Source: Nibribacter ruber
Lineage (GTDB): Bacteria > Bacteroidota > Bacteroidia > Cytophagales > Hymenobacteraceae
Direction of reading: 5' to 3'
Assembly: GCF_009913235.1 (NCBI RefSeq)
Contig: NZ_CP047897.1
Coordinates: 3,843,001 to 3,907,000, forward strand
Length of the DNA: 64,000 nucleotides
The number at the start of each line of letters is the position of its first letter. Within the stretch, counting starts at the first letter, position 1. Of the stretch, positions 1,118-62,621 are shown in pieces. A model generated the notes under the pieces. It was not told the DNA's origin. It saw only the letters and a program-made list of their open reading frames with translations, and made no database searches. The position numbers were made by a program, and so were the translations under genes.

Positions 1118-1153
1118 GTTTTTAGCCTGTTTTCCAGAAAAGAGCCTAAAAAC
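1118..1153. repeat. 38-bp palindromic repeat, copy 1
   Basis: Arms are GTTTTTAGCCTG and GAGCCTAAAAAC around a TTTCCAGAAA centre. It lies between fahA and the nifU-like gene. Its right arm runs straight into the terminator at 1149-1204. Confidence 0.85.
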
Positions 1154-1204
1154 AGAAAGCCCGCGGGGTATTGAGAACATAAGAATCCTCAAAACCCCGC
1201 GGGC
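1149..1204 (-). terminator. intrinsic terminator of the mrp-nifU pair
   Basis: A GCCCGCGGGG/CCCCGCGGGC stem is followed on the minus strand by TTTCTGTTTTT. It sits just downstream of the nifU-like stop codon. The T-tract is supplied by the arm of palindromic repeat copy 1. Confidence 0.7.
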
Positions 1205-1234
1205 GTATTTCTAATCTTTAAATCTAAAGCATTC

Positions 1235-1513
1235 TTACACGAAAGACTCAGAGATAGGCGTCAGGTTGACGGCCACTACTCCTTTAATCTCTGGGACGGC
1301 TTTCATGATGGCTTGCTCTACACCGCCTTTAAAAGTCATGGCAGACATTGGGCAAGAACCGCAGGCACCCACCAACTCAATCTGCACTATTTTTTCTTCT
1401 GATATCTCCAGCACCTTTACATCACCTCCGTCTGTTTTCAAGTACGGACGAATGGTGTCTAAGGCCTGCTCTACCTGAAGAAGCAATATTTCATTCAATG
1501 CGCTGTCTACCAT
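1235..1513 (-). CDS. NifU-like C-terminal domain Fe-S protein
   Basis: A 92-residue protein consisting only of the NifU C-terminal (Nfu-type) domain, which carries iron-sulfur clusters to target proteins. It has the two-cysteine motif GACGSCPMSAMTF near residues 50-62, the CxxC pair that binds a bridging cluster, preceded by the typical segment with IRPYLKTDGGDV. The stop codon of mrp lies 4 bp upstream, so the two form a pair. The upstream gene is an Mrp/ApbC-type Fe-S carrier ATPase, so both probably act in cluster delivery. The family call is firm; the client proteins are unknown. Confidence 0.93.
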   Translation of the reverse strand: MVDSALNEILLLQVEQALDTIRPYLKTDGGDVKVLEISEEKIVQIELVGACGSCPMSAMTFKGGVEQAIMKAVPEIKGVVAVNLTPISESFV

Positions 1514-1517
1514 ATGC

Positions 1518-2618
1518 TTACGCTTTAATTTCTACTACCTGAGTTCTGGCCATGCTGGCGTTCCTAACAGACACCTGGCGGGCCACTTCTTCGGCTACCT
1601 GCTTGAATACCGCGGTAGCCGGTGAGCCTTCTTCCAGAATCTGCGGGGTGCCCGCGTCACCGTTCTCTCTAATGCTTTGTACCAACGGAATCTCGCCAAT
1701 AAATGGAACCCCGTAGCGCTCTGCCAAATCACGTCCTCCGCCTTGCCCGAAGATATAGTATCTGTTATCAGGCAGTTCGGCTGGGGTGAAGTAGGCCATG
1801 TTTTCTACCAATCCCAAGACCGGCACGTTGATTTGCGGTTGTCTGAACATCTGCAAACCTTTCACGGCATCGGCTATGGCTACTTTCTGCGGAGTGGTCA
1901 CTATGATGGCGCCCGTTACCGGTACTGTCTGTACCAACGTCAGGTGAATGTCACTGGTTCCCGGCGGAAGGTCAATGAGTAAATAATCCAAATCGCCCCA
2001 TTCTACCTCGGTGATAAACTGCTTCAAAGCAGAACTGGCCATAGGACCGCGCCAAACCACCGCGTGTTCTGCCGGCGTCAGGAACCCGATGGAGATAAGC
2101 TTGATACCAAATTTCTCAATCGGCTGAATGAGGTTCTGACCTTCGGGTGTGCGGTACACCACAGGACGAGCATCTTCTACGCCAAACATAGTCGGCACAG
2201 ATGGACCCGAGATATCAGCGTCTACCAAACCTACCTTCGCACCAGACTGAGCCAAGGCCACGGCCAGGTTAGCGGTTACGGTAGACTTGCCCACGCCTCC
2301 TTTGCCAGAAGCCACAGCAATAATATTCTTCACACCTTTCAATACCGTGGTATCTACGCGGGCAGTGGTCACGCGGGAGGTCATGTTCACGGTCACCTCG
2401 GCGGCAGGGTCCACCATGGTGGTGATGGCCCTGATGCAGGCGCTCCGGATGAGGTCTTTGAGGGGACAGGCCGGCGTGGTGAGAATCACGGTGAAACTCA
2501 CCTTAAGGCCGTCTATTGCTACATCCTCAATCATGTTCAAAGTCACCAAGTCTTTTCCAAGATCTGGCTCCTCTACATAACTAAGGGCTTTTAATACGTC
2601 TTCTTTGGTAATGGCCAT
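1518..2618 (-). CDS. mrp: Mrp/ApbC (NBP35-like) Fe-S carrier P-loop ATPase
   Basis: A cytoplasmic P-loop ATPase of the Mrp/NBP35 family that loads iron-sulfur clusters onto apoproteins. The N-terminal 90 residues form a DUF59/MIP18 domain (ITKEDVLKALSYVEEPDLGK). The deviant Walker A follows at about 100 (ASGKGGVGKST), then DADISGPS and the switch motif DLPPGTSD. I place the start at the ATG at 2618 (MAITKEDV) instead of the in-frame ATG at 2660, because the family begins at this DUF59 segment. About 366 residues is the usual length. It is directly followed by the nifU-like gene. The region upstream is shared with the divergent dnaG. Confidence 0.93.
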   Translation of the reverse strand: MAITKEDVLKALSYVEEPDLGKDLVTLNMIEDVAIDGLKVSFTVILTTPACPLKDLIRSACIRAITTMVDPAAEVTVNMTSRVTTARVDTTVLKGVKNIIAVASGKGGVGKSTVTANLAVALAQSGAKVGLVDADISGPSVPTMFGVEDARPVVYRTPEGQNLIQPIEKFGIKLISIGFLTPAEHAVVWRGPMASSALKQFITEVEWGDLDYLLIDLPPGTSDIHLTLVQTVPVTGAIIVTTPQKVAIADAVKGLQMFRQPQINVPVLGLVENMAYFTPAELPDNRYYIFGQGGGRDLAERYGVPFIGEIPLVQSIRENGDAGTPQILEEGSPATAVFKQVAEEVARQVSVRNASMARTQVVEIKA

Positions 2619-2733
2619 AGGAATATAGGCGCTAAATTTCGCTCCTGCAAAGATACACACTATCTCTCTAACAAGCTAAAAGGCAAGAAGTAGTTGTAGT
2701 AGCGCGCAGGATACTCTATTTCCCGCAATGATT

Positions 2734-2771
2734 CGTTTTTGGCCTGTTTTTCAGAAAAAAAGCCAAAAACG
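2734..2771. repeat. 38-bp palindromic repeat, copy 2
   Basis: Arms are CGTTTTTGGCCTG and AAAGCCAAAAACG. It lies in the divergent mrp/dnaG intergenic region, one of the few copies between two gene starts. Confidence 0.88.
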
Positions 2772-2864
2772 GATTAATCAACGATGGGACCCTAGAAGCT
2801 ATAATGGCTTTTTGAAATTAACTTCGCATATTAGAATTGGCAATGAATAGCAGAATCCTAGCCG

Positions 2865-2872
2865 TATCTTTG
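2865..2872 (+). promoter_or_regulatory. Bacteroidota -7 box upstream of dnaG
   Basis: TATCTTTG matches the TAnnTTTG consensus of Bacteroidota sigma-A promoters and lies 68 bp before the dnaG ATG. The nearest TTG upstream (2837-2839) is 25 bp away, longer than the usual spacing, so only the -7 box is claimed. Confidence 0.45.
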
Positions 2873-2940
2873 TCTTCTTTTCATAAGCATACTAGTAGAA
2901 AAGTCTAGCCTCTAGCTACTAGCATCTCCCTTTAGTACCC

Positions 2941-4929
2941 ATGGCCCTGATTAAGAAAGAAGTTGTTGACCAGATCATCCAGCAAGCCGACATAGTGGAG
3001 GTGGTGGGTGATTTTGTGAGTTTGAAAAAGAAGGGCCAGAACCTGTGGGCGCCATGTCCCTTCCACTATGAAAAATCACCGTCTTTTTCAGTAGCGCCCA
3101 ACAAGGGGATTTACAAGTGCTTCGGGTGCGGCAAGGCGGGCAACGCCGTGCAGTTCATCATGGACATTGAGGGCACCAGCTACGTAGAGGCGCTCAAGTA
3201 CCTGGCTAAGAAGTACAGCATTGACATTGAGGAAGATACTAGCCCAGCCGCCGTACAAGCTCAAAATGAGAAGGACAGCCTCTTCATCATCTCAGATTTC
3301 GCGAAAGAATACTATGTCAAGGCACTTCATAAAAACGACGAAGGACAGAGCATAGGCGCGCCCTACTTTAAGCAACGCGGCTTGTCTGCGGCTACTATTC
3401 AGAAGTTTGAGTTGGGTTACAGCTTAGATAGCTGGGATGATTTTACCAAGGCGGCGTTGGAAAAAGGCTTCCAATTAAAGTACTTGGAAGAAACCGGCCT
3501 CACCATTGTCAAGCAGGAGGAAGGCAAACAGTATGACCGCTTCAGGGGGCGGGTCATGTTCCCTATCCATAACGTTAGCGGACGTACTATTGGCTTTGGC
3601 GCGCGGACGCTCAAGAGCAATGACAAGAAATCGCCTAAATACGTCAACTCTCCAGAGTCGCCTATTTACCATAAGTCTGATGTGCTGTATGGCATGTTTC
3701 AGGCCAAGCAGGCCATTCGGCAGGAAGATGTCTGTTACCTGGTAGAAGGCTATCTGGACGTATTATCTCTGCACCAGGGCGGCATTGAGAACGTGGTGGC
3801 TTCGTCAGGGACGTCCCTCACCGAGAACCAAATCAAACTTATTGGGCGCTACACCAAGAACATTACGGTTTTGTATGACGGTGACCCGGCGGGTATCAAA
3901 GCCTCTTTGCGTGGCATCGACCTGATTTTGGAAGGTGGCCTGAATGTAGACGTGGTCTTGTTCTCGGACGGTGACGACCCCGACAGCTACATCCGCAAGG
4001 TAGGCGATACCAAATTCAAGGAATACCTCAAAGCGCACAGCCAGGATTTCATCTCGTTTAAGTCTGAACTCTACGCACAAGAGGCCAGAAATAACCCTGT
4101 CAAGAAAGCCGAGGCCATCCGTGAAATGGTGGTCTCCATTGCTAAGATCCCGGATGCCATCAAGCGGTCGGTATTCTTGAAGCAGTGCAGCATCCAGTTT
4201 GGGATTGACGAGCAGGTGCTCATTTCTGAGTACAACAAGATTCACCTGGCAGAGCAGAAGTCCTCTAAGCCCACGCCCGGTTCTGCGCCTTCTGCCTTCT
4301 CGCCAGGCTCATACTCGCCGGGCTCTTTTGAAGAAATGGCCGCCGAAGCGGAAGCCGCCGCAGCCGCTGAGGCCGAAGCCTACGAACAGGAAAACCAGAC
4401 TGAGGATACCTCCACGCTCATCAAAACCCGGGAGCGCGAAGTCATCCGACTCATCCTCAACTACGCTGATAAAGAAGTAGAAGAAGGCCTCACTACCAGC
4501 CAGTTTATGCTAGGTGAGCTGGAGGATATTGAATTCCAGACGCCCATTTACAAACGCCTTTTTGACATGTGCCGCATCAAACTAGAGCAAGGCTTCATGC
4601 CCACTGCCGCGGAGTTTATGCAGCATGAGGAGAAAGAAATCCGGAACGAGGTAATTGACCTGGTCAGTGAGAAATATGAACTCAGCGAAGGCTGGGCCAC
4701 CCATGAAATCTTTGTGCCCCGTGAGGTGGACCTGATTCAGTACGGCTCTGAGCGCGAAGTTTTACGTCTAAAATGGCGCAACGTACAAGCCATGATCCGC
4801 GAGCACATGAACAGCCTGCAAACCCTCCAAGACCCCCAAGAACTAGACAAAGTCCTCCGCACCATCAAAGCCCTCAAAGACTTTGAGAAACAGATTGGCG
4901 ACATGCTGGGGATAGTGGTGAACCGGTAG
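2941..4929 (+). CDS. dnaG: DNA primase DnaG
   Basis: Primase that lays RNA primers for chromosomal replication. An N-terminal CHC2 zinc finger spans residues 38-66 (CPFHYEKSPSF, then CFGCGKAGN). The RNA-polymerase core and TOPRIM domain follow, with VEGYLDVLSLHQ near 268 and VLYDGDPAGIKA near 312 holding the metal-binding acidic residues. A low-complexity Ala/Glu stretch around 465-480 separates the core from the C-terminal helicase-binding domain. At 662 residues it is of normal length. It is the only gene in its transcription unit; a long repeat-rich gap follows. Confidence 0.97.
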   Translation: MALIKKEVVDQIIQQADIVEVVGDFVSLKKKGQNLWAPCPFHYEKSPSFSVAPNKGIYKCFGCGKAGNAVQFIMDIEGTSYVEALKYLAKKYSIDIEEDTSPAAVQAQNEKDSLFIISDFAKEYYVKALHKNDEGQSIGAPYFKQRGLSAATIQKFELGYSLDSWDDFTKAALEKGFQLKYLEETGLTIVKQEEGKQYDRFRGRVMFPIHNVSGRTIGFGARTLKSNDKKSPKYVNSPESPIYHKSDVLYGMFQAKQAIRQEDVCYLVEGYLDVLSLHQGGIENVVASSGTSLTENQIKLIGRYTKNITVLYDGDPAGIKASLRGIDLILEGGLNVDVVLFSDGDDPDSYIRKVGDTKFKEYLKAHSQDFISFKSELYAQEARNNPVKKAEAIREMVVSIAKIPDAIKRSVFLKQCSIQFGIDEQVLISEYNKIHLAEQKSSKPTPGSAPSAFSPGSYSPGSFEEMAAEAEAAAAAEAEAYEQENQTEDTSTLIKTREREVIRLILNYADKEVEEGLTTSQFMLGELEDIEFQTPIYKRLFDMCRIKLEQGFMPTAAEFMQHEEKEIRNEVIDLVSEKYELSEGWATHEIFVPREVDLIQYGSEREVLRLKWRNVQAMIREHMNSLQTLQDPQELDKVLRTIKALKDFEKQIGDMLGIVVNR

Positions 4930-4974
4930 TGCAGTTATCAGTAAGCAGTAATTAGTAAACAGTTTTGGGAGCTT

Positions 4975-5012
4975 CGTTTTTAGCTTGGTTTCTGGAAAAG
5001 AGGTCAAAAACG
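4975..5012. repeat. 38-bp palindromic repeat, copy 3
   Basis: Arms are CGTTTTTAGCTTG and GAGGTCAAAAACG around TTTCTGGAAA. It starts 45 bp after the dnaG stop codon. Confidence 0.85.
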
Positions 5013-5331
5013 CCATTTGGTACAGACGCTCGCAGGTCCTGCCGGACGCTACGAGGTCTTTTGAGTAGAGGCAGACGGTGAGGATAGTAAGTGGCGTAGG
5101 TAACGCGCCAGATACAAGGCAACGCCGTTGTCTCTACAGTAATTTCATGAACCACCCGCCAGCAGGGCGATGAAGGCATTGCAACATCTCCAATACCAAT
5201 CTGCCAACCCTTGACCGAGGGAAAAGAGACTGGTCAATTTAAGTCTCTTTTCACGAGGGAGAAGGCAACAGCCTGTCAACTTTCAGTGGCTTATGTTTAC
5301 TATGAAACGAATCACTTCTCACAGTGCACCT

Positions 5332-5444: not shown

Positions 5445-5562
5445 AGGATGGTTGGGAAGGCGATATTGGGAGGCAGAGACGGGAGTGTAAACACCCCTCT
5501 TCGCTCCCCTCAAGGGGAGAATCTGCGTTGAAAAGCAGCTGTAGTATCACTAAACAAAAAGC

Positions 5563-5599
5563 GTTTTCACCCTTCTTTCCAAAAAACACCCCAAAAACG
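5563..5599. repeat. 38-bp palindromic repeat, copy 4 (diverged)
   Basis: A diverged copy with CGTTTTCACCC and CCCCAAAAACG arms around TTTCCAAAAAA. The central C+A core and outer arms are kept, the inner stem is lost. Confidence 0.55.
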
Positions 5600-5661
5600 C
5601 TTCTATTCCCACACACTTCAAGGATACTACTCCCTAACGATGGTTAGGCATAAAAAACCGC

Positions 5662-5669: not shown

Positions 5670-5733
5670 CGCATCCAAAGGCAGAGGTGCTTCTGTTGTG
5701 GGAAATCCGCTGCCTTCACTTTATTCTACAGAC

Positions 5734-6943: not shown

Positions 6944-6981
6944 CGTTTTTGCCCTGTTTTCACCAAAAGAGGCGAAAAACG
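6944..6981. repeat. 38-bp palindromic repeat, copy 5
   Basis: Arms are CGTTTTTGCCCTG and GAGGCGAAAAACG. It begins 2 bp after the ribBA stop, and its right arm is reused as the left arm of the terminator at 6971-7020. Confidence 0.8.
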
Positions 6982-10510: not shown

Positions 10511-10547
10511 AAAAACAGAAAGCCCGCTGAGCGGGCTTTCTGTTTTT
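10511..10547 (-). terminator. intrinsic terminator after the M56 peptidase gene
   Basis: AAAAACAGAAAGCCCGC pairs with GCGGGCTTTCTGTTTTT. It lies downstream of the M56 stop on the minus strand. One of its tracts coincides with the arm of palindrome copy 6. Confidence 0.8.
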
Positions 10548-10578
10548 AGCGTGTTTTGGCTAAAATGGGCAAAAAACG
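10542..10578. repeat. 38-bp palindromic repeat, copy 6
   Basis: A diverged copy: GTTTTTAGCGTG and GGGCAAAAAACG around TTTTGGCTAAAA. It ends 6 bp before the M56 stop codon and shares its left arm with the terminator. Confidence 0.65.
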
Positions 10579-12590: not shown

Positions 12591-12628
12591 CGTTTTTAGC
12601 CTGTTTTCACTAAAACAAGCCAAAAACG
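12591..12628. repeat. 38-bp palindromic repeat, copy 7
   Basis: Arms are CGTTTTTAGCCTG and CAAGCCAAAAACG around TTTTCACTAAAA. It ends 8 bp from the M14 peptidase stop codon. Confidence 0.85.
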
Positions 12629-14422: not shown

Positions 14423-14460
14423 CGTTTTTAGCCTGTTTTCCGGAAATCAGGCTAAAAACG
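14423..14460. repeat. 38-bp palindromic repeat, copy 8
   Basis: Arms CGTTTTTAGCCTG and CAGGCTAAAAACG: the G-to-A change in the left arm is matched by C-to-T in the right arm, a compensated pair. It ends 22 bp from the DoxX stop. Confidence 0.9.
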
Positions 14461-17704: not shown

Positions 17705-17778
17705 CCCTTTAAATGCGAAAGTCGTTTTTGGCTTGTTTTCTGGGAAACAGGCCAAAAACGACTTTCGCATTTAAAGGG
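17705..17778. repeat. palindromic repeat copy 9 at the centre of a 74-bp palindrome
   Basis: The core CGTTTTTGGCTTG/CAGGCCAAAAACG (17723-17760) is flanked by CCCTTTAAATGCGAAAGT and its exact reverse complement, an 18-bp extra stem on each side. It lies between the convergent surE and lipoprotein genes. Confidence 0.92.
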
Positions 17779-21335: not shown

Positions 21336-21548
21336 ACTTGTGGTATGGGGTGTTTTGTTAGTAAAGGATTTGTTTGGTGTGATAGGTACTCTGCAACGGC
21401 GTTGCAACAGATAGACAACTACCTAAAACAAAGGTTTAATCTGGCGTCCTGCTTTTTGAAACTTTATTTTAAATTTTCAGTAGCACCGATGCGGTGAACT
21501 GGATAAACCCGGTAACGGACCGTCTGGGCGGCTTTAGAAGATTGTATC

Positions 21549-21585
21549 GTTTTTGGTCTATTTCCTGGAAAACAGGTCAAAAACG
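21549..21585. repeat. 38-bp palindromic repeat, copy 10
   Basis: Arms CGTTTTTGGTCTA and ACAGGTCAAAAACG around TTTCCTGGAAA. Located between the metalloprotease start and the 98-residue gene. Confidence 0.8.
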
Positions 21586-25641: not shown

Positions 25642-25679
25642 CGTTTTTGGCCTGTTTCCTAGAAAACAAGCCAAAAACG
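25642..25679. repeat. 38-bp palindromic repeat, copy 11
   Basis: Arms CGTTTTTGGCCTG and CAAGCCAAAAACG around TTTCCTAGAAAA, with AAC/GTT extending the stem outward. Ends 23 bp from the TonB-like gene stop. Confidence 0.9.
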
Positions 25680-26530: not shown

Positions 26531-26760
26531 AGTTCGTTGTGATTTAGCCCTGAAAGATAAGAAACAGAATCTTTACTTCTCTGCCATAGCGGCTTAGCGA
26601 TCCGTAAATTCTGCCCGAAACCGCAAATGCCCGTTCCTTTTCAAGAAATGGAATCGTATTTTTTTATCTGAGCCAGGCTGGCAAACGTTGAAGGGGTGGG
26701 TGCGCCAGGGAAAGTTTCGTGATTGGTATTACGTACTCCTGAGAAGCTCTGAGATGTTCA

Positions 26761-26797
26761 GTTTTTGCCGTGTTTTCCAGGAAATAGCCCAAAAACG
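26761..26797. repeat. 38-bp palindromic repeat, copy 12
   Basis: GTTTTTGCCGTG and TAGCCCAAAAACG arms around TTTCCAGGAAA. In the divergent region between the TonB-like and DUF1028 genes, 59 bp before the latter's start. Confidence 0.75.
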
Positions 26798-31014: not shown

Positions 31015-31032
31015 AACAGCACGCGCGGCGCT

Positions 31033-31069
31033 GATTTTGGCCTAATTTCAGAAAAATAGCCTAAAAACG
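31033..31069. repeat. 38-bp palindromic repeat, copy 13
   Basis: Arms GATTTTGGCCTA and TAGCCTAAAAACG around TTTCAGAAAA. It ends 8 bp from the DUF983 stop codon. Confidence 0.75.
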
Positions 31070-31584: not shown

Positions 31585-31638
31585 CCCGCCTTCGTTTTTG
31601 GGCAGTTTCCCAGGAAACTGCCCAAAAACGAAGGCGGG
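31585..31638. repeat. palindromic repeat copy 14 with extended perfect stem
   Basis: The core CGTTTTTGGGCAGTTTCC with its exact complement (31593-31630) is a perfect palindrome in which the inner stem differs from consensus on both sides at once. Flanks CCCGCCTT and AAGGCGGG extend it. Confidence 0.92.
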
Positions 31639-34192: not shown

Positions 34193-34230
34193 CGTTTTTG
34201 GGCTGTTTTCCAGAAAAGAGGCCAAAAACA
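34193..34230. repeat. 38-bp palindromic repeat, copy 15
   Basis: Arms CGTTTTTGGGCTG and GAGGCCAAAAACA around TTTCCAGAAAA, with CCAAACCC/GGGTTGG continuing the stem imperfectly. Between two divergent gene starts. Confidence 0.85.
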
Positions 34231-35329: not shown

Positions 35330-35367
35330 CGTTTTTGGCTTGTTTTCCAGAAATTAGGCCAAAAACG
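35330..35367. repeat. 38-bp palindromic repeat, copy 16
   Basis: Arms CGTTTTTGGCTTG and TAGGCCAAAAACG around TTTTCCAGAAA. It starts 5 bp after the kinase stop and separates the kinase from its regulator. Confidence 0.9.
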
Positions 35368-36264: not shown

Positions 36265-36302
36265 CGTTTTTAGCCTCTTTTCCAGAAAATACCCCAAAAA
36301 CG
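36265..36302. repeat. 38-bp palindromic repeat, copy 17
   Basis: Arms CGTTTTTAGCCTC and ACCCCAAAAACG around TTTTCCAGAAAA. 75 bp after the regulator stop. Confidence 0.75.
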
Positions 36303-40159: not shown

Positions 40160-40197
40160 CGTTTTTGGCTTATTTTCCGGGAAACAGCCGAAAAACG
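40160..40197. repeat. 38-bp palindromic repeat, copy 18
   Basis: Arms CGTTTTTGGCTTA and CAGCCGAAAAACG around TTTTCCGGGAAA, extended by CTTC/GAAG. Located 74 bp after the M16 gene stop. Confidence 0.85.
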
Positions 40198-41366: not shown

Positions 41367-41419
41367 TAAAAACGGGGAAGCCTCTTGAACTCCTATGCTC
41401 AAGGGGCTTCCCCGTTTTT
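41367..41419. terminator. bidirectional terminator between oxidoreductase and argH
   Basis: AAAACGGGGAAGCC(T)CTTGA pairs with TCAAGGGGCTTCCCCGTTTT. Its T-tract on the plus strand is the left arm of palindrome copy 19. Confidence 0.8.
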
Positions 41420-41450
41420 GGCCTTTTTCCCCGAAAAAAGGCTAAAAACG
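41413..41450. repeat. 38-bp palindromic repeat, copy 19
   Basis: Arms CGTTTTTGGCCTT and AAGGCTAAAAACG around TTTCCCCGAAA. It shares its left arm with the terminator and ends 50 bp from the argH stop. Confidence 0.85.
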
Positions 41451-43898: not shown

Positions 43899-43924
43899 GT
43901 ATGTTTTTACTACTTTTCTTCAAT

Positions 43925-44090
43925 GGCGCGAGTCTCCAGACACGTGCCTACGGATGAAGAGTAGTCTTCAGACTACCCTCGTTGCAACGCAATGAAATCA
44001 GGTTGTTAGAACTGCTCGTTTCTTCTGGTTGGTTCCCTGCGAGTCTGGAGACTCGCTTCATCCTATGTCACGAGACAGTAGTCTCGCGCC
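43925..44090. repeat. 166-bp hairpin element, copy A
   Basis: Ends GGCGCGAG and CTCGCGCC are inverted. GCGAGTCTCCAGAC near the left end pairs with GTCTGGAGACTCGC near the right. The left 60 and right 65 bp match copy B (47622-47788) closely, while the middle 45 bp differ. Lies in the argE/argB spacer. Confidence 0.8.
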
Positions 44091-44100
44091 AGTTGTTGGC

Positions 44101-44137
44101 CGTTTTTGGGCTGTTTTCTGGGAATTTAACTAAAACG
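44101..44137. repeat. 38-bp palindromic repeat, copy 20
   Basis: Left arm CGTTTTTGGGCTG intact, right arm decayed (TTAACTAAAACG). It directly follows hairpin element copy A, and ends 51 bp from the argB stop. Confidence 0.7.
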
Positions 44138-44986: not shown

Positions 44987-45329
44987 TAGGTTTTAGACGT
45001 TAGATTCAAGACTTTCTTTTCCTTGGTCTGTCCCCTGACAGGCCAATACATTGCGTGGGTCCATTAGAACGTTTCGGTCTATCAGGGGGGACAGATCGAG
45101 GAGGTTTCCTCTTCTCTTATTGTCATCCTGAAGGGACCTTGTGGGCGAGTTAGAAAAGCAGTGGCTCTATACTTCTCCTTGGCCTGTCCCCCGACAGGCC
45201 AATAAAAGAGTGGTGTTCAGGCAGAGTTTCGGTCTGTCAGGGGACAGACCGAGGGAAAGTTTTTTACTTTTAGTAGCCGCCTACCTAGTTTGCCCACAAG
45301 GTCCTTTCAGGATGACAAAAGATGGACCT
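44987..45329. other. repeat-packed spacer between argF and argB
   Basis: 343 bp with no credible gene. It contains two diverged direct copies of an ~80-bp unit (45021-45102 and 45177-45255, each with GACAGGCCAATA and GTTTCGGTCT) and the inverted-repeat element at 45120-45318. Confidence 0.7.
45120..45318. repeat. 199-bp element with 27-bp terminal inverted repeats
   Basis: The left end TTGTCATCCTGAAGGGACC... and the right end pair over 27 bp with one mismatch. The element carries nested dyads CCTGTCCCCCGACAGG and GGTCTGTCAGGGGACAGACC. GTCATCCTGA-type repeats are, from memory, widespread in Bacteroidota. No transposase is encoded, so it is MITE-like. Confidence 0.75.
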
Positions 45330-47553: not shown

Positions 47554-47591
47554 CGTTTTTGGCTTATTTTCTAGGAAATAGGCTAAAAACG
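47554..47591. repeat. 38-bp palindromic repeat, copy 21
   Basis: Arms CGTTTTTGGCTTA and TAGGCTAAAAACG around TTTTCTAGGAAA. Lies between argC and argD, with hairpin element copy B on its other side. Confidence 0.88.
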
Positions 47592-47621
47592 AAGTTTCTA
47601 TGGTGCTGTAATTTTATTGCT

Positions 47622-47788
47622 GGCGCGCGTCTCCAGACTCGTGCCTACGGATGCTGGGTAGTCTCTGACTACCCTCGCTGCCCAGCAGCGATATTTCGCA
47701 TTGCTAAACGGTAGGCATTTCAACTTGTAGTTCCCTGCGAGTCTGGAGACTCGCTTCATCCCAAGTCACGAGACTTAAGTCTCGCGTC
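47622..47788. repeat. 166-bp hairpin element, copy B
   Basis: Partner of copy A at 43925-44090; 167 bp, with GGCGCGCGTCTCCAGAC and GTCTGGAGACTCGC near the two ends and a different centre. Bracketed by palindrome copies 21 and 22 in the argD/argC spacer. Confidence 0.8.
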
Positions 47789-47811
47789 AGCGGGTAACCT
47801 CACAGGTTTCT

Positions 47812-47849
47812 CGTTTTTGGCCTCTTTTCCGCAAATCAGGCCGAAAACG
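47812..47849. repeat. 38-bp palindromic repeat, copy 22
   Basis: Arms CGTTTTTGGCCTC and CAGGCCGAAAACG around TTTCCGCAAAT. It ends 5 bp from the argC stop. Confidence 0.88.
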
Positions 47850-48844: not shown

Positions 48845-50030
48845 TTTCTTCTCCGTTGATTAAGCGGTACATCATGGTCTGGTTCCCGAATATTTTGGAG
48901 AAGCCTTTCACGTCTTCGCCGGTCCAGGCATTGTTCATCTCACCGTAAGACCCAAATTTAGAGGACATCAAATCATGCTCAGACTCAATGCCTTCTATCT
49001 GGAATCGGTATGGCGCCAACAGCACGTGTACTTTTCCGGTCACGGTTTTCTGCGTGTCTGTCAGGAACGTCTCAATGTTGCGCATGGTCGGGTCTAGAAA
49101 CTGACCTTCGTGCATCCAGTTGCCATACCAAGTAGCCAGGCTGTCTTTCCAGTACAGCTGCCATTTGGTAAGGGTGTGTTTTTCCAGAGCGTGGTGCGCC
49201 TTGATAATGACCATGGGGGCCGCCGCTTCAAACCCCACTCTGCCTTTAATCCCAATGATGGTATCGCCTACGTGAATGTCACGGCCAATCGCAAAAGCAC
49301 CGGCAATTTCCTGTAACTTCTGGACCACGTGCACCGGGTTATCGAAAAGTTCCTCGTTTAAGCCCACCGGCTCGCCGTTCTTGAAGTGCAGGGTAATGCG
49401 CTCCGGCGTTTCTTTGGTCAGTTGCGTTGGGTAGGCAGATTCCGGCAGTGCCTGATCAGACGTCAATGTTTCCTTACCACCTACTGATGTTCCCCAGATA
49501 CCTTTGTTGATGGAGTACTGCGCCTTCTGGAAATCCATCTCCACGCCGCGTTCTTTCAGGTAGGTGATCTCTTCCTCCCGGGACAATTTTAGGTCACGGA
49601 TAGGGGTTATGATTTCCACGTTAGGGATGAGGATGTTGAACACCATGTCAAACCGCACCTGGTCGTTGCCCGCACCGGTACTGCCATGAGCTACGGCCTC
49701 TGCGCCCACTTCAAGTGCATATTTGGCAATGGCCATGGCCTGCGAGATCCGCTCTGCGCTCACAGATAGGGGATAGGTGTCATTCTTGAGCACATTCCCG
49801 AAGATGAGGTACTTGAGGCAAGACTGGTAGTAGTTGTCGGTTTCGTCTAAGGTTACGTGCTGGGTCACGCCCAGATTCTCAGCCCTTCGGGAAATCTCTG
49901 CCAGTTCCTCTTCAGAGAAGCCGCCAGTATTTACAATAGCCGAATAGATGTCATAACCTTGTTCCAGCAGGTACTTCACACAAAAGGATGTGTCTAAGCC
50001 GCCACTGAACGCGAGAACTACTTTTTTCAT
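48834..50030 (-). CDS. argG: argininosuccinate synthase
   Basis: 398 residues; joins citrulline and aspartate with ATP. The PP-loop motif is VVLAFSGGLDTSFCVKYL at residue 4, followed by GSTGAGNDQVRFDMVF near 115, which are ArgG signatures. It lies upstream of argC with overlapping ends. Between it and the GNAT gene is a short spacer filled with an AGTGAATGAGTGA-type hairpin. The family and role are certain. Confidence 0.96.
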   Translation of the reverse strand: MKKVVLAFSGGLDTSFCVKYLLEQGYDIYSAIVNTGGFSEEELAEISRRAENLGVTQHVTLDETDNYYQSCLKYLIFGNVLKNDTYPLSVSAERISQAMAIAKYALEVGAEAVAHGSTGAGNDQVRFDMVFNILIPNVEIITPIRDLKLSREEEITYLKERGVEMDFQKAQYSINKGIWGTSVGGKETLTSDQALPESAYPTQLTKETPERITLHFKNGEPVGLNEELFDNPVHVVQKLQEIAGAFAIGRDIHVGDTIIGIKGRVGFEAAAPMVIIKAHHALEKHTLTKWQLYWKDSLATWYGNWMHEGQFLDPTMRNIETFLTDTQKTVTGKVHVLLAPYRFQIEGIESEHDLMSSKFGSYGEMNNAWTGEDVKGFSKIFGNQTMMYRLINGEENAK

Positions 50031-50033
50031 ATT

Positions 50034-50156
50034 GGTAATGAGTGATTGAGTGAATGTAAGAATGAGTGAATGTTTTTAATGAATGATTGAGTGAAGGAGT
50101 GAATGAGTGATTTTTTAATTATTCACTCCTTCACTCAATCTCTCAATCACTCATTG
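50034..50156. repeat. simple-sequence hairpin between GNAT gene and argG
   Basis: Iterated GAGTGAATG / GATTGAGTGA units read one way and then inverted (CACTCCTTCACTCAATC), giving a long imperfect stem with a TTTTTTAATTAT loop. Probably slippage-derived; in the argG leader. Confidence 0.65.
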
Positions 50157-56593: not shown

Positions 56594-58414
56594 TTATCTG
56601 TACTCAAACTGCAAGCGTAGAAGGTTGGCGTACACGCCGTTAGGATCTGCGGATAGTTGCGCGTGCGGACCCTGTTCCACAATCTGGCCTTTGTCTATCA
56701 CTAATATCTTGTCTACCTTTCTAATGGTAGCTAAGCGATGGGCTATGATAATAGTAGTGCGGTCTTTCATTAATTCGTCCATGGCTTCTTGTACCAGTTT
56801 CTCAGATTCAGAGTCAAGCGAGCTGGTTGCCTCGTCCAGAATCAGGATAGCCGGATTTTTTAAGATGGCCCGGGCAATGGCTATGCGCTGCCGCTGCCCA
56901 CCAGAAAGCTTTATGCCGCGCTCTCCCACCACAGTGTCAAATGCCTCCGGGAACGACTGAATGAATTGTAGGGCGTTGGCTTTCTGAGCGGCTTCCCAAA
57001 TCTCTTCTTCCGTAGCTTCGGGCTTTCCATAGGCTATGTTCTCGCGGATGGTGCCGCCAAACAGAAGAATTTCCTGTGGCACAATGCCCAGGTTGCCACG
57101 AAGTTCGTGCAGCGGCAAGGACGAAACGTTTTTCCCATCCACCAGAATAGTGCCCTGGTCAACGGCGTAGAACTTCATGAGCAACTGCACAATGGTAGAC
57201 TTGCCCGCACCGCTAGGGCCCACAAGCGCGATCTTCTCACCGGCCTGTATCTCAAAATCAATGTTCTGCAGCACTTTGATATCTGGACGAGTAGGGTAAG
57301 AGAAGCCCACGTGCTGGTACTGCACATGCCCGTTCAGGCGCAACTGCACCGGCGTGGTCATTTCACTCTCAGGCTGCTCGGTTTCCTGCTCCAGTATTTC
57401 CAAAATGCGTTCAGAGGCGCCAATGGACACCTGCACCTTGGCGTACAGATCTCCCAAGCCGGCCACAGAGGCGCCAATAAACGTTGTGTATAAGATAAAG
57501 GAGGTCAACTGCCCAATGGTCAACTCTCCGCGCTGTACTAAGGTGGCTCCGTACCAAATCACCAGAATAATCCCGCCAAACAGGCCTACTATAATAAAGG
57601 AGATAAAAACGCCGCGGTAAAAAGATGTGGTGATGGCGGTTTTCACAGACTTGCTGAGAGCGTTGCCATACCGGCGTATTTCAAACAGCTCATTGGTAAA
57701 GGCCTTCACCACCTGGATGGCTTGCAGTGTTTCTTCCACAATCACATTGGTGGTGGCCAGCTCATCCTGGGTTTTTCTGGAAAGCTTCTTCAGCCTTTTA
57801 CCGAAGACCATGGCCAGGATAATAAGCAGAGGAAACGTGGCCAGCATGAACAAAGACAGCTTCACGGAGATGTACATGATGAATCCAACCCCAATCAAGA
57901 GCGTGGTGATCTGCCGGAACAGCTCGGCGAGGGTGATGGAGAAACCGTCCTGGATGTAGCTTACGTCTGAGGTGATGCGGCTGGTGATTTCGCCTACGCG
58001 ACGCTGCTCATAAAACGGCAAGGGCAGACCCATAAATTTAGAGTACAGGCTGCGGCGTATGTCTGCAATGGCGTTCTCCGTGACCTGCGCAAAAAAGTAG
58101 ACCCTGAAGAAAGAGAAGATGCCTTGCAAAAAGATGACGCCAAACAAAATCAAGGCAATCAGGTCAAGGTCTTGGGTGAAGAAATTGGCTTTGCCCACGG
58201 CAGCGTCCAGCAAAATGCCCGTCACCGCCGGAAACGCCATGAACGTTAGGCTGGAGAAAAGCAGGAACAACAACCCAATGATGAATTTGCGCCGGTAAGG
58301 AAGCACAAACCGAAAAATGCTTAGACCCCTTCTAAGGCTTTCCTTGTTCAGTTTTGTTTTTCCCTCTGCCTCAGGTCCGGAAACCGCACCTGGCCCAAAT
58401 CCGCGTTTTGCCAT
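56594..58414 (-). CDS. MsbA-like ABC exporter (fused permease and ATPase)
   Basis: 606 residues, a half-transporter. The first 330 residues carry six membrane helices; the ATPase shows Walker A LVGPSGAGKSTIVQLL near 395, Q-loop region VPQEILLFGG, the signature LSGGQRQRIAIARAI near 500 and Walker B AILILDEATSSLDSESE near 520. It dimerises and exports a lipid or drug; the closest classic is MsbA/LmrA. Substrate unknown. Probably monocistronic; the SSS symporter genes lie upstream. Confidence 0.92.
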   Translation of the reverse strand: MAKRGFGPGAVSGPEAEGKTKLNKESLRRGLSIFRFVLPYRRKFIIGLLFLLFSSLTFMAFPAVTGILLDAAVGKANFFTQDLDLIALILFGVIFLQGIFSFFRVYFFAQVTENAIADIRRSLYSKFMGLPLPFYEQRRVGEITSRITSDVSYIQDGFSITLAELFRQITTLLIGVGFIMYISVKLSLFMLATFPLLIILAMVFGKRLKKLSRKTQDELATTNVIVEETLQAIQVVKAFTNELFEIRRYGNALSKSVKTAITTSFYRGVFISFIIVGLFGGIILVIWYGATLVQRGELTIGQLTSFILYTTFIGASVAGLGDLYAKVQVSIGASERILEILEQETEQPESEMTTPVQLRLNGHVQYQHVGFSYPTRPDIKVLQNIDFEIQAGEKIALVGPSGAGKSTIVQLLMKFYAVDQGTILVDGKNVSSLPLHELRGNLGIVPQEILLFGGTIRENIAYGKPEATEEEIWEAAQKANALQFIQSFPEAFDTVVGERGIKLSGGQRQRIAIARAILKNPAILILDEATSSLDSESEKLVQEAMDELMKDRTTIIIAHRLATIRKVDKILVIDKGQIVEQGPHAQLSADPNGVYANLLRLQFEYR

Positions 58415-58452
58415 GTAATACTCGCTTTGTAAAATTAAGAAGGCTGCCTCAC

Positions 58453-58490
58453 CGTTTTTGGCTTGTTTCTAGGAAAACAGGCCAAAAACG
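58453..58490. repeat. 38-bp palindromic repeat, copy 23
   Basis: Arms CGTTTTTGGCTTG and CAGGCCAAAAACG around TTTCTAGGAAAA. Between the ABC exporter start and the first symporter stop (68 bp from it). Confidence 0.92.
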
Positions 58491-58558
58491 GCCCCGGTGG
58501 TGGGGAGGCAATTTGCAAAGGTAGAGATTCCTACTGATTTGCCACACTCCCGGCACGC

Positions 58559-60022
58559 TTAGCTGAAACTGCTTTTTTCTCCGGAAGGTTTTGAGACCAG
58601 CCAAAGCCCCGTAAACGCCAGCAGGCCGTTCAAAAGCAAGACCTCAAACCCAAACGTATAGCCCCAGAACCACTCCTGAGAGTTAGCTGCCAACACATAC
58701 GTGAGCACGGGCGCCAACACGCAGACCACCGGCACCCAGCGGTCCCGCACAGAACGCTGAGTAAACAACCCAAAAAGAAAGAGCCCCAGCAGCGGCCCGT
58801 ACGTGTAACCGGTCAACTTGAAGAGCAGCACAATCAGGCTCTCACTCTGCAATGCCCTGAACACCAGCATGAACGCCAACAGCAGAAGCGAGAAACCCAC
58901 ATGCACCCAGTTCTTGATTTTGATTCGCTGCTGCTCCGGCCGCTCTTTGAAATTGAGGAAGTCCACGCAGAAGGCAGTGGTGAGCGCGGTCAAGGCAGAG
59001 TCTGCCGAGGCGTACGTGATAGCCGTGATGCCCAGAATGAAAGCCAGGCCTGCCAATGCAGAGAAATGGTGCAAGGCCAGAAACGGAAACACGTCATCGC
59101 CTTTCTCCGGCAGCGTAATCCCCTTGGCGTTGGCATACAGGAACAACAACGCCCCCAAACCCAGAAACAGAAGATTCACAATTACCAGAATGACCGTAAA
59201 CCACCCCATGTTCTTCTGCGACTCGGGTAGGGTTCTGCAGCTTAGGTTTTTTTGCATCATGTCCTGGTCCAGGCCGGTCATCACAATGGTAATGAAGGCG
59301 CCAGAAACCACCTGCTTCCAGAAATAATTAGGCGCATGTACGTCCCATTCAAACACAGTGGCATAAGAACTTTCAGAAATAGTGGTGAACAAGCCAGAAA
59401 AGGAGAGATTCAATTCGCCGGCTATCAAATACATGCTCACGCCCAGGCAAAAGAGCATGGCGGCGGTCTGGAGCGTATCTGTCCAGATGATGGTTTTCAT
59501 GCCCCCTCTATACGTATACAGCCAGATCAAAGCAATAAGCAGCGTGGCAGAAAGCCCGAACGGAATCCCCAGCCCATCAAAGACCGCCAACTGCAGCACG
59601 CCCGCCACCAGGTACAGCCTTAAAGAAGCGCTCAAAGTCCGGGAAAGCAGGAAAAAACCAGAACCCGACCGGTAAGACCACTTTCCAAGCCGTTGCTCCA
59701 GATACGTGTAGATAGAAACCGATTGCAGGCGGTAGTACAAGGGCAGCAGCACGGTGGCAATAACCAGATAGCCCAGCACATACCCGAACACCATCTGCAG
59801 ATACGTGAACTGCGCCTTCTCCACCATGCCCGGAATGGAGACGAACGTGATCCCCGAGAGGGTAGTGCCAATCATGCCAAAAGCCACCACGTACCACGGC
59901 GACTGTCGGTTGGCCAGAAAGAAGCCCTGGGTAGATTCTCCTTTTCTGCTCGTTAAAAAAGAAATGCCCAGCAACAGGCAGAAGTAGGCGGCAATGATGC
60001 CCAGTATCAAAAGTGGAGACAT
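58559..60022 (-). CDS. sodium:solute symporter (SSS family), copy 1
   Basis: 487 residues with about 13 membrane helices; SSS family (PutP/SGLT fold) carries a solute with sodium. Family features include the N-terminal FFLANRQSPWYVVAFGMIGTTLSGITFVSIPG near residue 35, YLEQRLGKWSYRSGSGFFLLSR near 105, and ALIWLYTYRGGMKTIIWTDTLQ near 165. It is a tandem duplicate of the next gene, with very similar length and sequence. The substrate is unknown; related proteins carry sugars, proline or pantothenate. Confidence 0.93.
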   Translation of the reverse strand: MSPLLILGIIAAYFCLLLGISFLTSRKGESTQGFFLANRQSPWYVVAFGMIGTTLSGITFVSIPGMVEKAQFTYLQMVFGYVLGYLVIATVLLPLYYRLQSVSIYTYLEQRLGKWSYRSGSGFFLLSRTLSASLRLYLVAGVLQLAVFDGLGIPFGLSATLLIALIWLYTYRGGMKTIIWTDTLQTAAMLFCLGVSMYLIAGELNLSFSGLFTTISESSYATVFEWDVHAPNYFWKQVVSGAFITIVMTGLDQDMMQKNLSCRTLPESQKNMGWFTVILVIVNLLFLGLGALLFLYANAKGITLPEKGDDVFPFLALHHFSALAGLAFILGITAITYASADSALTALTTAFCVDFLNFKERPEQQRIKIKNWVHVGFSLLLLAFMLVFRALQSESLIVLLFKLTGYTYGPLLGLFLFGLFTQRSVRDRWVPVVCVLAPVLTYVLAANSQEWFWGYTFGFEVLLLNGLLAFTGLWLVSKPSGEKSSFS

Positions 60023-60104
60023 GCGGTCAAGAAAATCAACAGCCCAGGCAGGTAAGCAGGCGTCTTAGGCAGCAAAGGTACGCGTAGAAGGGACTTGCAT
60101 AAAA

Positions 60105-60160
60105 AACTGCCTTCGTTTTTGGCTTATTTCCTGGGAAACAGGCCAAAAACGAAGGCAGTT
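60105..60160. repeat. palindromic repeat copy 24 with extended stem
   Basis: The core CGTTTTTGGCTTA/CAGGCCAAAAACG (60114-60151) is flanked by AACTGCCTT and its exact complement AAGGCAGTT. Ends 16 bp from the second symporter stop. Confidence 0.92.
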
Positions 60161-60176
60161 ACATCTAACCACAGCC

Positions 60177-61649
60177 CTAAGACAAGGCCTGCGTGTCTAT
60201 GAATTCAGTCTTTTTATACGAGATGGAAAGCAAGCCCAGGAACGTAAGTGCCCCGTTCAGGATCAATACCTCAAACCCGAACTCATATCCCCAGAGCCAC
60301 TCCACAGAATTAGAACTGATGATAAATGTAAGGATGGGAGCCAGCACGCAAACCACCGGCGTTAAACGGTCGCGCACGGCCAAACGCGTGAACACGCCAA
60401 AGGCATAAAGACCCAGCAGAGGGCCATACGTGTACCCGGCCACTTTGAACACCGCCTGCACCACGCTCTCATTGTTCAGGTACTTGAAGGCGATGATGAT
60501 AAGGCCCATCAAAAGCGAAAAGGTAAGGTGCACCCAGTTCTTCAACCTGATGCGCTCTGTCTCTGGACGGTTTTTGAAATCCAGAAAATCTACGCAGAAA
60601 GAGGTGGTGAGTGCCGTCAAGGCAGAGTCTGCCGAAGCGTACGTGATGGCCGTGATGCCCAGAATGAACGCAATGGCTGCAAAGGAGGAGAAGTAGTTAA
60701 GCGCCAGGAACGGGAACACGTTATCACCTTTCTCAGGCAGGCCAATGCCTTTGGCACCGGCGTACAGGTACAACAACGCGCCCAGGCTCAGGAACAGAAT
60801 GTTCACAATCATGATGATGACCGTGAAGGTGAACATGTTCTTCTGGGCTTCCTTCAGGTTTTTACAGCTCAGGTTCTTCTGCATCATGTCCTGATCCAGA
60901 CCTACCATCACAATGGAGATGAAAGCCCCAGACAGGAACTGCTTAAAGAAGTAGCGCGGGTCTTTCACATCCCAGAAGAACACTTGTGAGTATTTGCTGT
61001 TGGAGATGGTGTCTACCATGCCAGAAAAGGACAGGTTCAACTCAGACGAAATCATGGAAATACTCACGCCCACGCAGATGAGCATGGCCAGCGTCTGGAA
61101 AGTGTCCGTCCAGATGATGGTTTTCATGCCGCCTCTAAACGTGTAAACCCAGATGAGCGCAATGGTAATGGCCACAGACACTTCAAACGGAACGCCCAGG
61201 TCATCAAACACCGCCAACTGCAATACGCCTGCCACCAGGTACATCCTAATAGAAGCGCCCAGCGTGCGGGACAGCAAAAAGAACGCCGCGCCGGTTTTGT
61301 AAGACCAGAACCCGAAACGCTCTTCCAGGTAGGTATAAATGGACACCAGATTGAGACGGTAATATAAGGGCATCAAGATCAAGGCCACTACAAAATAGCC
61401 CAGCATGTTGCCAAAAATGAGCTGCAGGTATGAGAACTGGGCCTTCTCCACCATGCCCGGAATGGAAATGAACGTCACCCCAGAAAGGGAAGTGCCAATC
61501 ATGCCAAAAGCCACCACATACCACGGCGACTGTCGGTTGGCCAGGAAGAAGCTGTCTGTAGACTCGCCTTTCTTGCTGGTGAGAAAGGAGATTAAGATGA
61601 GTACACAAAAATAGGCGGTGATGATGCCCAGAATTAGCGTTGAAGACAT
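60177..61649 (-). CDS. sodium:solute symporter (SSS family), copy 2
   Basis: 490 residues, the same architecture as the neighbouring symporter: FFLANRQSPWYVVAFGMIGT near 36, YLEERFGFWSYKTGAAFFLLSR near 106, ALIWVYTFRGGMKTIIWTDT near 165. The two proteins align along their whole length. It lies upstream of copy 1 on the same strand. Between them is a palindrome (copy 24) but no gene, so they could be one transcript. It probably uses a related solute, and the duplication may have widened the substrate range. Confidence 0.93.
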   Translation of the reverse strand: MSSTLILGIITAYFCVLILISFLTSKKGESTDSFFLANRQSPWYVVAFGMIGTSLSGVTFISIPGMVEKAQFSYLQLIFGNMLGYFVVALILMPLYYRLNLVSIYTYLEERFGFWSYKTGAAFFLLSRTLGASIRMYLVAGVLQLAVFDDLGVPFEVSVAITIALIWVYTFRGGMKTIIWTDTFQTLAMLICVGVSISMISSELNLSFSGMVDTISNSKYSQVFFWDVKDPRYFFKQFLSGAFISIVMVGLDQDMMQKNLSCKNLKEAQKNMFTFTVIIMIVNILFLSLGALLYLYAGAKGIGLPEKGDNVFPFLALNYFSSFAAIAFILGITAITYASADSALTALTTSFCVDFLDFKNRPETERIRLKNWVHLTFSLLMGLIIIAFKYLNNESVVQAVFKVAGYTYGPLLGLYAFGVFTRLAVRDRLTPVVCVLAPILTFIISSNSVEWLWGYEFGFEVLILNGALTFLGLLSISYKKTEFIDTQALS

Positions 61650-61769
61650 AGCTTAGTCAGGATTGGAGCGAAATCACCCCGGTTAACACCAAGGCATAAG
61701 GACAAATATAATTAAAAAACCATACCCTGTTTCTGCGGTGATAAGATGTTACGGTCCGTCGGAAAGCAA

Positions 61770-61804
61770 AAAACTCTTCCGGGGGTTTCTCCCAGAAGAG
61801 TTTT
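61770..61804 (-). terminator. intrinsic terminator of the small secreted protein gene
   Basis: AAAACTCTTC-C-GGG with CCC-A-GAAGAGTTTT, loop GGTTTCT-like. About 40 bp after the stop at 61846 on the minus strand, with T-rich flanks. Confidence 0.7.
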
Positions 61805-61845
61805 GTTTATGGAATAAAGTTGCGCCAGAAATGCAGGACTGCCCA

Positions 61846-62514
61846 TTAAAAAGGATTCCCGAAGGAAGAGCCAGGCTGATAGTAAGCACCTGGTGCACCC
61901 CAGTACCCGGTGGTACCGCTGCCGTACCGCACGCCACCCGAAATAGTCACGTTGGGCGCCAGTTGGTACTTAGCCTGGAAATCAAATCCCTGCTGCGGAT
62001 AGCCGCCATAGGTAAATGGATTAGCCATGTACATGGAAGGAGAGGCGGGGCCAATGCTCTTCCAGACGCTGCCGCTCAGCATGAGTTTCTCGGTCATGGC
62101 ATAGGAGCCGCCCACATGCAACAAGTACTGCCGCGAGGCCGGATTGCCCAGAGTCAACGGACCGGCTCCTGCTCCCTCGCCGCGTGCGGCAGAGGATACC
62201 GTAGACCCGCCCCAACTCTGAATCATCATAAGGCTGCTGAACACCTGAAAACGAGGCGTCACGTGGTACTGTACCCGTGGCTCAAGGTAGCTTGCAGAGC
62301 CAAAACTGCTGAACGCCGCCCCTGCTGACAGGCTGTAGCTTAGCCTGGACGTTTTTAAAAGAGTGGACGCTGCCTGAACAGAATCAGGTTTGGTAGCCGT
62401 TACCGTAGGTTGGGCGCTAGTCTCTGGCAGCAAGGTCATGTCCTGCGCCTGCAACGTTCCGCCCAAAAGCAAGGCTGCGCACAAGGCCGTATAGAAGGAT
62501 AATTTTTTGGTCAT
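61846..62514 (-). CDS. secreted beta-barrel-like protein of unknown function
   Basis: 222 residues from the ATG at 62514 (MTKKLSFYTALCAALLLGG, signal peptide ending LQA). Alternating hydrophobic and polar residues (VQYHVTPRFQVFSSLMMIQSWGG, LHVGGSYAMTEKLMLSGSVWKS, FDFQAKYQLAPNVTISGGVRYG) and a C-terminal Phe suggest an outer-membrane barrel of about eight strands. I do not recognise a named family. The longer ORF from 62529 adds five residues. It lies between the symporters and the M61 peptidase, both on the same strand, without a clear link. Confidence 0.65.
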   Translation of the reverse strand: MTKKLSFYTALCAALLLGGTLQAQDMTLLPETSAQPTVTATKPDSVQAASTLLKTSRLSYSLSAGAAFSSFGSASYLEPRVQYHVTPRFQVFSSLMMIQSWGGSTVSSAARGEGAGAGPLTLGNPASRQYLLHVGGSYAMTEKLMLSGSVWKSIGPASPSMYMANPFTYGGYPQQGFDFQAKYQLAPNVTISGGVRYGSGTTGYWGAPGAYYQPGSSFGNPF

Positions 62515-62583
62515 AGTCTGAATACCCAACCGGGCACTACAAATCTAACGAAAACATCAGGTAATATTGTAAGGCAGCCTCGT

Positions 62584-62621
62584 CGTTTTTAGTCTGATTT
62601 CCAGAAACTAAGCCAAAAACG
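62584..62621. repeat. 38-bp palindromic repeat, copy 25
   Basis: Arms CGTTTTTAGTCTG and TAAGCCAAAAACG around TTTCCAGAAA. It ends 6 bp from the M61 stop codon. Confidence 0.82.

Follow-up and report, generated by a model that had tools for sequence, protein, structure and literature searches.

An abundant 38-bp palindrome between Rufibacter genes is a candidate double-stranded DNA site

A 38-bp palindrome recurs in the gaps between genes

The window analyzed here, 64 kb of the Nibribacter ruber chromosome (contig NZ_CP047897.1, positions 3,843,001 to 3,907,000), contains 25 copies of a 38-bp palindrome that lie between genes. A first-pass annotation of this DNA had listed 25 copies, and we found all of them, each 38 bp long except one of 37, at starts that agree to within 1 base. 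We trained a symmetric weight matrix on 24 of the 25 window copies and, at a threshold of 20 bits, scanned 464 kb of our own genome (G000), made up of the window and 20 evenly spaced stretches of 20 kb. The matrix placed 187 sites at 20 bits or more in this sample and 0 in the reversed sequence, with complete separation of matrix scores from background, and retraining brought the set to 188 copies. Across the 4.35-Mb chromosome, a strict pattern gave 657 exact matches and 1,687 at up to 3 mismatches, with a control of 0 for both, so the earlier extrapolation to well over a thousand copies genome-wide was right.

Each half of the palindrome follows the consensus Y-CGTTTTTRGCYTRTTTTCY in our species, for a site of about 38-40 bp, and inspection of this consensus places T/A tracts about 10.5 bp apart inside each half. 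The flanks are uninformative save for a Y at -1; no tetranucleotide foot (GTAG/GGAG or CGTC) stands beside the hairpin. The palindrome always occurs whole (solo half-sites at 15 bits: 4, control 4), and we rejected transposon ends as an explanation because solo half-sites are absent. The window gave 0 Rfam matches at gathering score, the exact pattern was absent from IMG/VR contigs, one copy used as a blastn query had no match among plasmids, and searches of open-licence PMC literature on Rufibacter, Hymenobacteraceae, Hymenobacter and wider listed no description of a 38-mer repeat of this kind.

Copies are spread evenly round the chromosome: 19 of the 20 stretches have 6-12 each, and the 20-kb counts give a variance-to-mean ratio of 0.39 when the remaining stretch is left out. 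That stretch (C1:2631201-2651200; 42.8% G+C) contains no copy in 20 kb, and from about 4.5 kb on it carries a tyrosine integrase, an ABC-three-component (ABC-3C) defence system and macro and helix-turn-helix (HTH) genes. It has 5.8 kb between genes, in which about 13 copies would be expected at the sample rate of 2.3 per kb. We infer that this island is acquired DNA; as it holds no copies, new DNA does not seem to be colonized quickly.

To place the copies we used gene calls from our own script, whose start over-calls affect some counts. As the first-pass annotation had noted, most window copies (20 of 25) have a stop codon no more than 80 nt away. Its further claim that none is inside a gene stands for the window, where only the copy at 26760 falls in an over-called start, and fails in the 464-kb sample, where 8 of the 188 copies are in called genes (at least 2 of them start over-calls, about 6 apparently real). 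Convergent gaps hold 41 copies (34 of 51 gaps occupied), co-directional gaps 114 (101 of 283 occupied; 0 of the 83 shorter than 45 bp) and divergent gaps 20 (18 of 51 occupied), with 5 copies unclassed. Among 300 gaps of at least 40 bp, 152 were occupied, against 108.7 ± 4.9 for random placement by available room, while two-copy gaps numbered 22 against 39 at random and three-copy gaps 0; the element therefore stands in about half of such gaps and rarely twice. Of the 114 co-directional copies, 32 start 0-10 nt behind the stop codon, where 8.6 were expected, and for copies at 1-8 nt a simple roadblock terminator is unlikely.

Copies are conserved in place and written in species dialects

We searched 16 Rufibacter genomes, our own included, and 43 relatives outside the genus; the assignment to Rufibacter follows the named relatives of a gene nearby. 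The strict pattern occurred in 14 of the 16, with no match in either G003 or G015, and in 0 of the 43. For 7 genomes of the same family we also listed the inverted repeats of 14 stretches of 20 kb; most were terminator-like, and no similar recurring palindrome was visible by eye. Within the genus, stretches from 13 relatives (L029-L048), those of G003 and G015 among them, keep the 38-bp architecture, each species with its own dialect, which bears out the earlier idea of a family. The clearest dialects are those of G013 (CGTTTTCGGGCTCATTTC...) and G005 (CGTTTAGGGGCTSTTTTT...). Beyond G000, G007 and G013, the dialects come from a low matrix threshold that gave 7-28 hits per genome, where the reversed controls reached at most 3; in G009, where the reversed control gave 19, three weak hits leave the element hardly detectable. 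Similar copies appeared in G002 and G010 in a de novo palindrome search, which took the place of the matrix scan for these two. The motif carries 50.6 bits in our own genome and 47.5 bits in G007. In the window's OMP gene region, copies lie at the same place across species.

Orthologous gaps were compared over 173.8, 160 and 180 kb of G000, G007 and G013, with a median protein identity to G000 of 92% for G007, the nearest relative, and 79% for G013. Between G000 and G007, 35 orthologous gaps were occupied in both, 7 in one and 49 in neither; 3 of the 7 unshared gaps were gene-call artefacts, and none presented a clean empty site. The more distant G000/G013 comparison gave 17 gaps occupied in both, 11 in one and 19 in neither, of 47. 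The 30 one-to-one G000/G007 pairs were identical at 31.0 of 38 positions, against 28.7 for random pairs, with aligned flanks 58% identical (random, 24%). In these orthologous pairs the conserved columns, which were picked from our own copies, were 94% identical and the variable columns 70%. As the gaps are also shared, we read the copies as old and probably held in place by purifying selection.

Element-like DNA within coding sequence was compared across the genus for two genes. A generic matrix for the genus at 20 bits or more matched 0 of 463,223 reversed positions and 6 of 336,114 inner coding positions of our own sample. In ispE, element-like DNA occupies the same codons in 15 of 16 genomes (G008 being the exception), and in a pabB-like gene it does so in 16 of 16, with no insertion or deletion within the element in either case. 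In G013 the pabB-like copy follows that species' own dialect, with corresponding differences in the residues that it encodes. The motif-critical codons of ispE are nearly fixed (Val GTT 15/16, Ser AGC 12/12, Thr ACG 15/15) and its other codons are free. As these are native codons without indels, the dialect at these sites changes by substitution and not by replacement of inserted units.

Most copies lack the marks of an RNA hairpin

Because each arm matches the same half-site, pairing of the arms is by itself not evidence of structure, and we set it against shuffled copies. Paired cells made up 86.6% in the 25 window copies (86.5% shuffled), 78.6% in 229 copies of our own genome (79.5% shuffled, with 991 of 1,000 shuffles reaching or exceeding the observed value) and 76.1% in 129 copies of G013 (76.9% shuffled). 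The 95 copies of G007 gave 77.6% against 76.1%, a value reached by 9 of 1,000 shuffles, and the excess was gone (75.6% against 75.4%) without the copies that have complementary flanks. Early small samples had carried a pairing excess in G007, G013, G011 and G009; pairing was resampled with more sequence in G007 and G013, which removed the excess in G013, while the values for G011 and G009 are those of the early samples. The earlier statement that both arms change together is thus not general: the arms vary independently in most copies, and among our own copies mirror positions 13 and 11 are negatively correlated. At orthologous G000/G013 sites, both arms had changed in 27 cells, against 25.7 if independent. 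At columns 11, 13 and 19 of 188-229 own copies the arms were complementary less often than expected, and the central two bases were complementary in 18% of copies against 35% when shuffled, with CA and TG common. Possible reasons for this low complementarity are selection that disfavours perfect hairpins, or asymmetry of the complex.

If a hairpin in the transcript were important, the sense strand should have more G·U than A·C mismatches. The 114 co-directional copies of our own genome had 120 G·T and 122 A·C mismatches, and the relatives 85 and 107; by distance from the stop codon, our own G·T:A·C ratios were 35:42 at no more than 15 nt, 63:43 at 15-100 nt (p = 0.064) and 22:37 farther away. 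Larger regions gave 47:54 in G000, 28:55 in G007 (p = 0.004) and 56:65 in G013, so that the G007 copies depart in the direction opposite to that of an RNA hairpin, which those of G000 and G013 do not. Intrinsic terminators end in a U-tract, whereas in the core of the 38-mer the T-tract lies on the 5' arm and no U-tract trails it, and we found no excess of downstream T-tracts on the sense strand. Over all gap lengths, canonical terminators were present in 20 of 97 co-directional gaps with the element and 21 of 89 without it, and in 15 of 32 and 9 of 14 convergent gaps, respectively. From the covariation, the strand-wise G·T and A·C counts and the sense T-tracts, we rejected an RNA hairpin for most copies.

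A subset of copies is different. A locus-specific, perfectly complementary flank of at least 5 bp extends 25 of the 229 own copies (about 11%), and the 188-copy set has 22 such copies where about 1 was expected. Pooled over three species, long-flank copies have a T-tract behind them on the sense strand in 11 of 25 co-directional cases (antisense, 2 of 25) and on either strand in 9 of 19 convergent cases; for short-flank copies the counts are 12 of 230 (sense) and 7 of 230 (antisense) in co-directional gaps, and 1 of 89 in convergent ones. Cores with flanks of at least 4 bp also pair better (15.2 against 13.0 of 17), and the orthologous pairs of window copies 14 and 24 retain the flanking stem despite its changed sequence. 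By their T-tracts, nearly half of these long-flank copies look like intrinsic terminators with the core at their apex. The mRNA 3'-end structure proposed in the first-pass annotation thus fails in general and fits only this 11%, about half of which is terminator-like.

The RAYT genes of the genome have repeats of their own

The same annotation had offered a repetitive extragenic palindromic (REP)-like family, or mobilization by a REP-associated tyrosine transposase (RAYT), as a further reading, and had suggested looking for the transposase gene. Our genome encodes three (REP_Tyr_transpos, NF047646; 107, 99 and 99 bits, cut-off 80), whose motifs by eye are NHLH / WQ / Y[IL]H[QH]NP and resemble subclass 2.6 in the excerpted text of PMC6006769, where subclass 2.6 genes lie beside atypical repeats. 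A RAYT-like match was present in 15 of the 16 genus genomes, and none was detected in G007, 220 kb of which also contained none of the RAYT-adjacent repeats. In our genome each RAYT adjoins its own doublet repeat of about 115-140 bp, different for each gene. One RAYT is bordered on both sides by near-consensus 38-mers; over 30 loci, a 38-mer lies within 700 nt on 38 of 60 RAYT sides, which in a rough cross-species comparison is ordinary against the 137 of 230 own gaps of at least 100 bp that are occupied. Nor does the lineage of the RAYT at 1739211 track the strict-pattern counts, which are 657, 51, 9, 4 and 1 in its carriers G000, G001, G006, G002 and G012 and 385 in G007, which lacks it. A hint had come from a copy in G013 dialect close to the RAYT at 1861553; it was not borne out, as a tree of 29 of the listed RAYT matches pairs this gene with a RAYT of G005. 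Because the adjacent repeats differ and 38-mers flank RAYTs no more often than ordinary gaps, we reject RAYT mobilization; what stands of the earlier proposal is a real, abundant, intergenic and 3'-biased family shared with sister species.

The repeat of the RAYT at C1:1739211 consists of GCGAGTCTnnAGACTCG hairpins in inverted doublets (L131, 3982-4124), and the window has it again at 43924-44092 and 47621-47790; it is likely the REPIN of a subclass-2.6-like RAYT. The doublet palindromes of the other two RAYTs lie at L129 3334-3473 and at L130 3628-3754 and 4366-4485.

A proposed protein-read DNA site and its rivals

The palindrome has two-fold symmetry, its arms are nearly independent, it is conserved in place, it differs by species dialect, it stands once or twice in each occupied gap and it does not depend on RAYTs. 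Because the REP and RNA tests fail for most copies, and because of the conservation in place and the dialects, we give about an even chance to the view that a dimeric protein reads it as a double-stranded DNA site of two-fold symmetry, maintained in place by selection. Such a protein would contact each half independently, for which a dimer or tetramer is simplest, and the bound site would be a topological, insulating or nucleoid landmark, often behind stops or between convergent genes, that may mark the boundaries of transcription units (here, gaps between called genes). The specificity of the binder would drift by species and pull about 1,700 sites along by point substitution. Roughly one copy in nine additionally caps a longer stem, and close to half of those copies would be ordinary intrinsic terminators. 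Noc/ParB-type landmarks are likewise palindromic double-stranded DNA sites to which a dimer binds and which are distributed over the chromosome, and the inner TTTCC/GGAAA of the 38-mer resembles a Noc site. The 38-mer differs in having many more sites, about twice the length and a location at gene ends; each of the 16 genus genomes has one PF02195 gene, and as this is a single ParB-domain gene per genome we rejected a dedicated Noc-like ParB paralogue. More tentatively, and at odds we hold to be well short of even, the copies could form a genus-specific, insulator- or chromatin-like system of boundary marking, in which one protein acts on about 1,700 sites and its drifting code rewrites them in place into dialects, even in coding sequence. 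REP elements and RNA hairpins are the usual explanations for abundant intergenic palindromes of bacteria, and both fail for most copies here. Such a site would be in use at a large share of gene boundaries, its binder, once identified, would prove to be a global protein of boundaries or architecture or would lead to a new self-recognition signal, and the dialects are a natural experiment in which one factor and about 1,700 sites would change together.

Several results weigh against a protein-read site. We found no protein binder for the 38-mer, a simple polymerase roadblock fits poorly with copies that start 0-10 nt after a stop, and REPs share the 3' bias. The motif contains about 50 bits where about 11 are needed to pick 1,687 sites, near-identical copies are in excess (18 pairs at no more than 1 difference, against 3.2 from independent columns), and the ispE whole-element codon test is not significant alone (15 of 53 windows as low). 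Some traces of pairing also persist: the 17 copies of G011, long flanks included, had 67% paired cells against 62% shuffled (0 of 200 as high), both arms had changed in 33 cells of the 30 orthologous G000/G007 pairs against 24 if independent, and G·T exceeded A·C (63 to 43) at 15-100 nt behind the stop. Finally, canonical terminators were present in 0 of 24 co-directional gaps of 60-150 bp with the element and 8 of 47 without it (p = 0.045, one of nine length classes), so that the element may have some terminator-like role.

A self-recognition or uptake-like DNA signal, spread by biased recombination and with its species dialect set by a receptor, seems unlikely to us, although it would account well for the dialects and the excess information. 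DNA uptake sequences (DUS) and uptake signal sequences (USS) spread by biased recombination in competent bacteria; Rufibacter is not known to be competent. The likeness lies in the more than 1,000 evenly spaced copies, the absence from the island, the elements within native coding sequence that show no insertion and the dialects, which DUS also have (PMC3630211). Unlike DUS, the 38-mer is a palindrome that never appears as single half-sites, is nearly all intergenic with a strong 3'-end placement, and occurs in a genus where 16 of 16 genomes lack a type IV pilus/type II secretion system (T2SS) ATPase (PF00437) over the cut-off. Slightly less probable still is a REP-like mobile repeat moved by some enzyme other than a RAYT, now old and slow, with copies replaced in situ. 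Besides the REP-like distribution and the excess of near-identical copies, one orthologous pair fits such replacement, with conserved flanks and a core identical at only 24 of 38 positions, and roughly one in nine copies caps another hairpin, as do some REP families in the excerpted text of PMC3733652. Against mobility, positions are conserved (about 4 of 42 occupied G000/G007 gaps unshared), conserved columns stay so in old copies, the island is empty and the in-gene sites show no insertion. REPs and REPINs are, in the excerpts of PMC3733652, PMC6006769 and PMC8049555, short, high-copy, long-lived intergenic palindromes with the same 3' and convergent bias, sometimes within genes or other palindromes; the 38-mer has no GTAG/CGTC foot, forms no clusters, keeps its orthologous sites, has arms that mostly do not covary and is independent of RAYTs. 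We therefore consider a RAYT-mobilized REP or REPIN very improbable in spite of the three genes over the cut-off, the matches in 15 of 16 genomes and the RAYT flanked on both sides, since local RAYTs have other repeats and G007, with no RAYT hit, has well-conserved 38-mers. We put an equally small weight on an RNA hairpin that terminates or stabilizes mRNA 3' ends across the family: the 3' bias, the better-pairing cores and T-tracts of the long-flank copies, the terminator deficit in short gaps and the local G·T surplus favour it, but for the other 89% covariation is absent in three species, there is no overall wobble bias and T-tracts are rare, terminators are about equally common overall with and without the element, and over a third of divergent gaps (18 of 51) are occupied.

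Copies and other repeats in the window

The window copies of the palindrome are collected in the table.

Table 1. Copies of the 38-bp palindrome in the 64-kb window
Copy	Position	Score (bits)	Context
1	1117..1154	55.5	
2	2734..2771	56.7	divergent gap
3	4975..5012		stop codon 45 nt before
4	5562..5599	36.4	weak
5	6944..6981		ribBA stop 1 nt before
6	10541..10578		stop codon 6 nt before
7	12591..12628		M14 peptidase stop 8 nt before
8	14423..14460	59.3	
9	17705..17778 (core 17723-17760)		convergent gap; perfectly complementary flanks of 18 bp
10	21548..21585		
11	25642..25679	61.2	
12	26760..26797		within over-called gene start; common to G007 (by eye)
13	31032..31069		orthologous G007 site 37/38 identical; same-place match in 7/7 aligned relatives (7.8-47 bits)
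14	31585..31638 (core 31593-31630)		8-bp complementary flanks; G007 orthologue also extended, with other stem sequence
15	34193..34230		divergent gap; same-place match in 7/7 aligned relatives (9.5-54.7 bits)
16	35330..35367		histidine-kinase (LytS-like) gene stop 4 nt before
17	36265..36302		
18	40160..40197		
19	41413..41450		convergent gap
20	44101..44137	30.3	degenerate, 37 nt
21	47554..47591		
22	47812..47849		stop codon 5 nt before
23	58453..58490		
24	60105..60160 (core 60114-60151)		9-bp complementary flanks; one flank pair changed on both sides in G007 orthologue
25	62584..62621		stop codon 6 nt before

The window contains other repeated sequence. Another hairpin family, GGYCTGTCCCCYGACAGRCC, lies at 45016-45204 and about 45105-45326; queries from this region gave many short matches in G007, and the exact hairpin pattern was not found in 220 kb of that genome. 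Positions 50029-50110 hold two tandem 41-nt copies, 80% identical and rich in GAATGAGTGA-type units. Tandem sodium:solute symporter paralogues at 58559-60022 and 60177-61649 share long stretches of 72-77% DNA identity.

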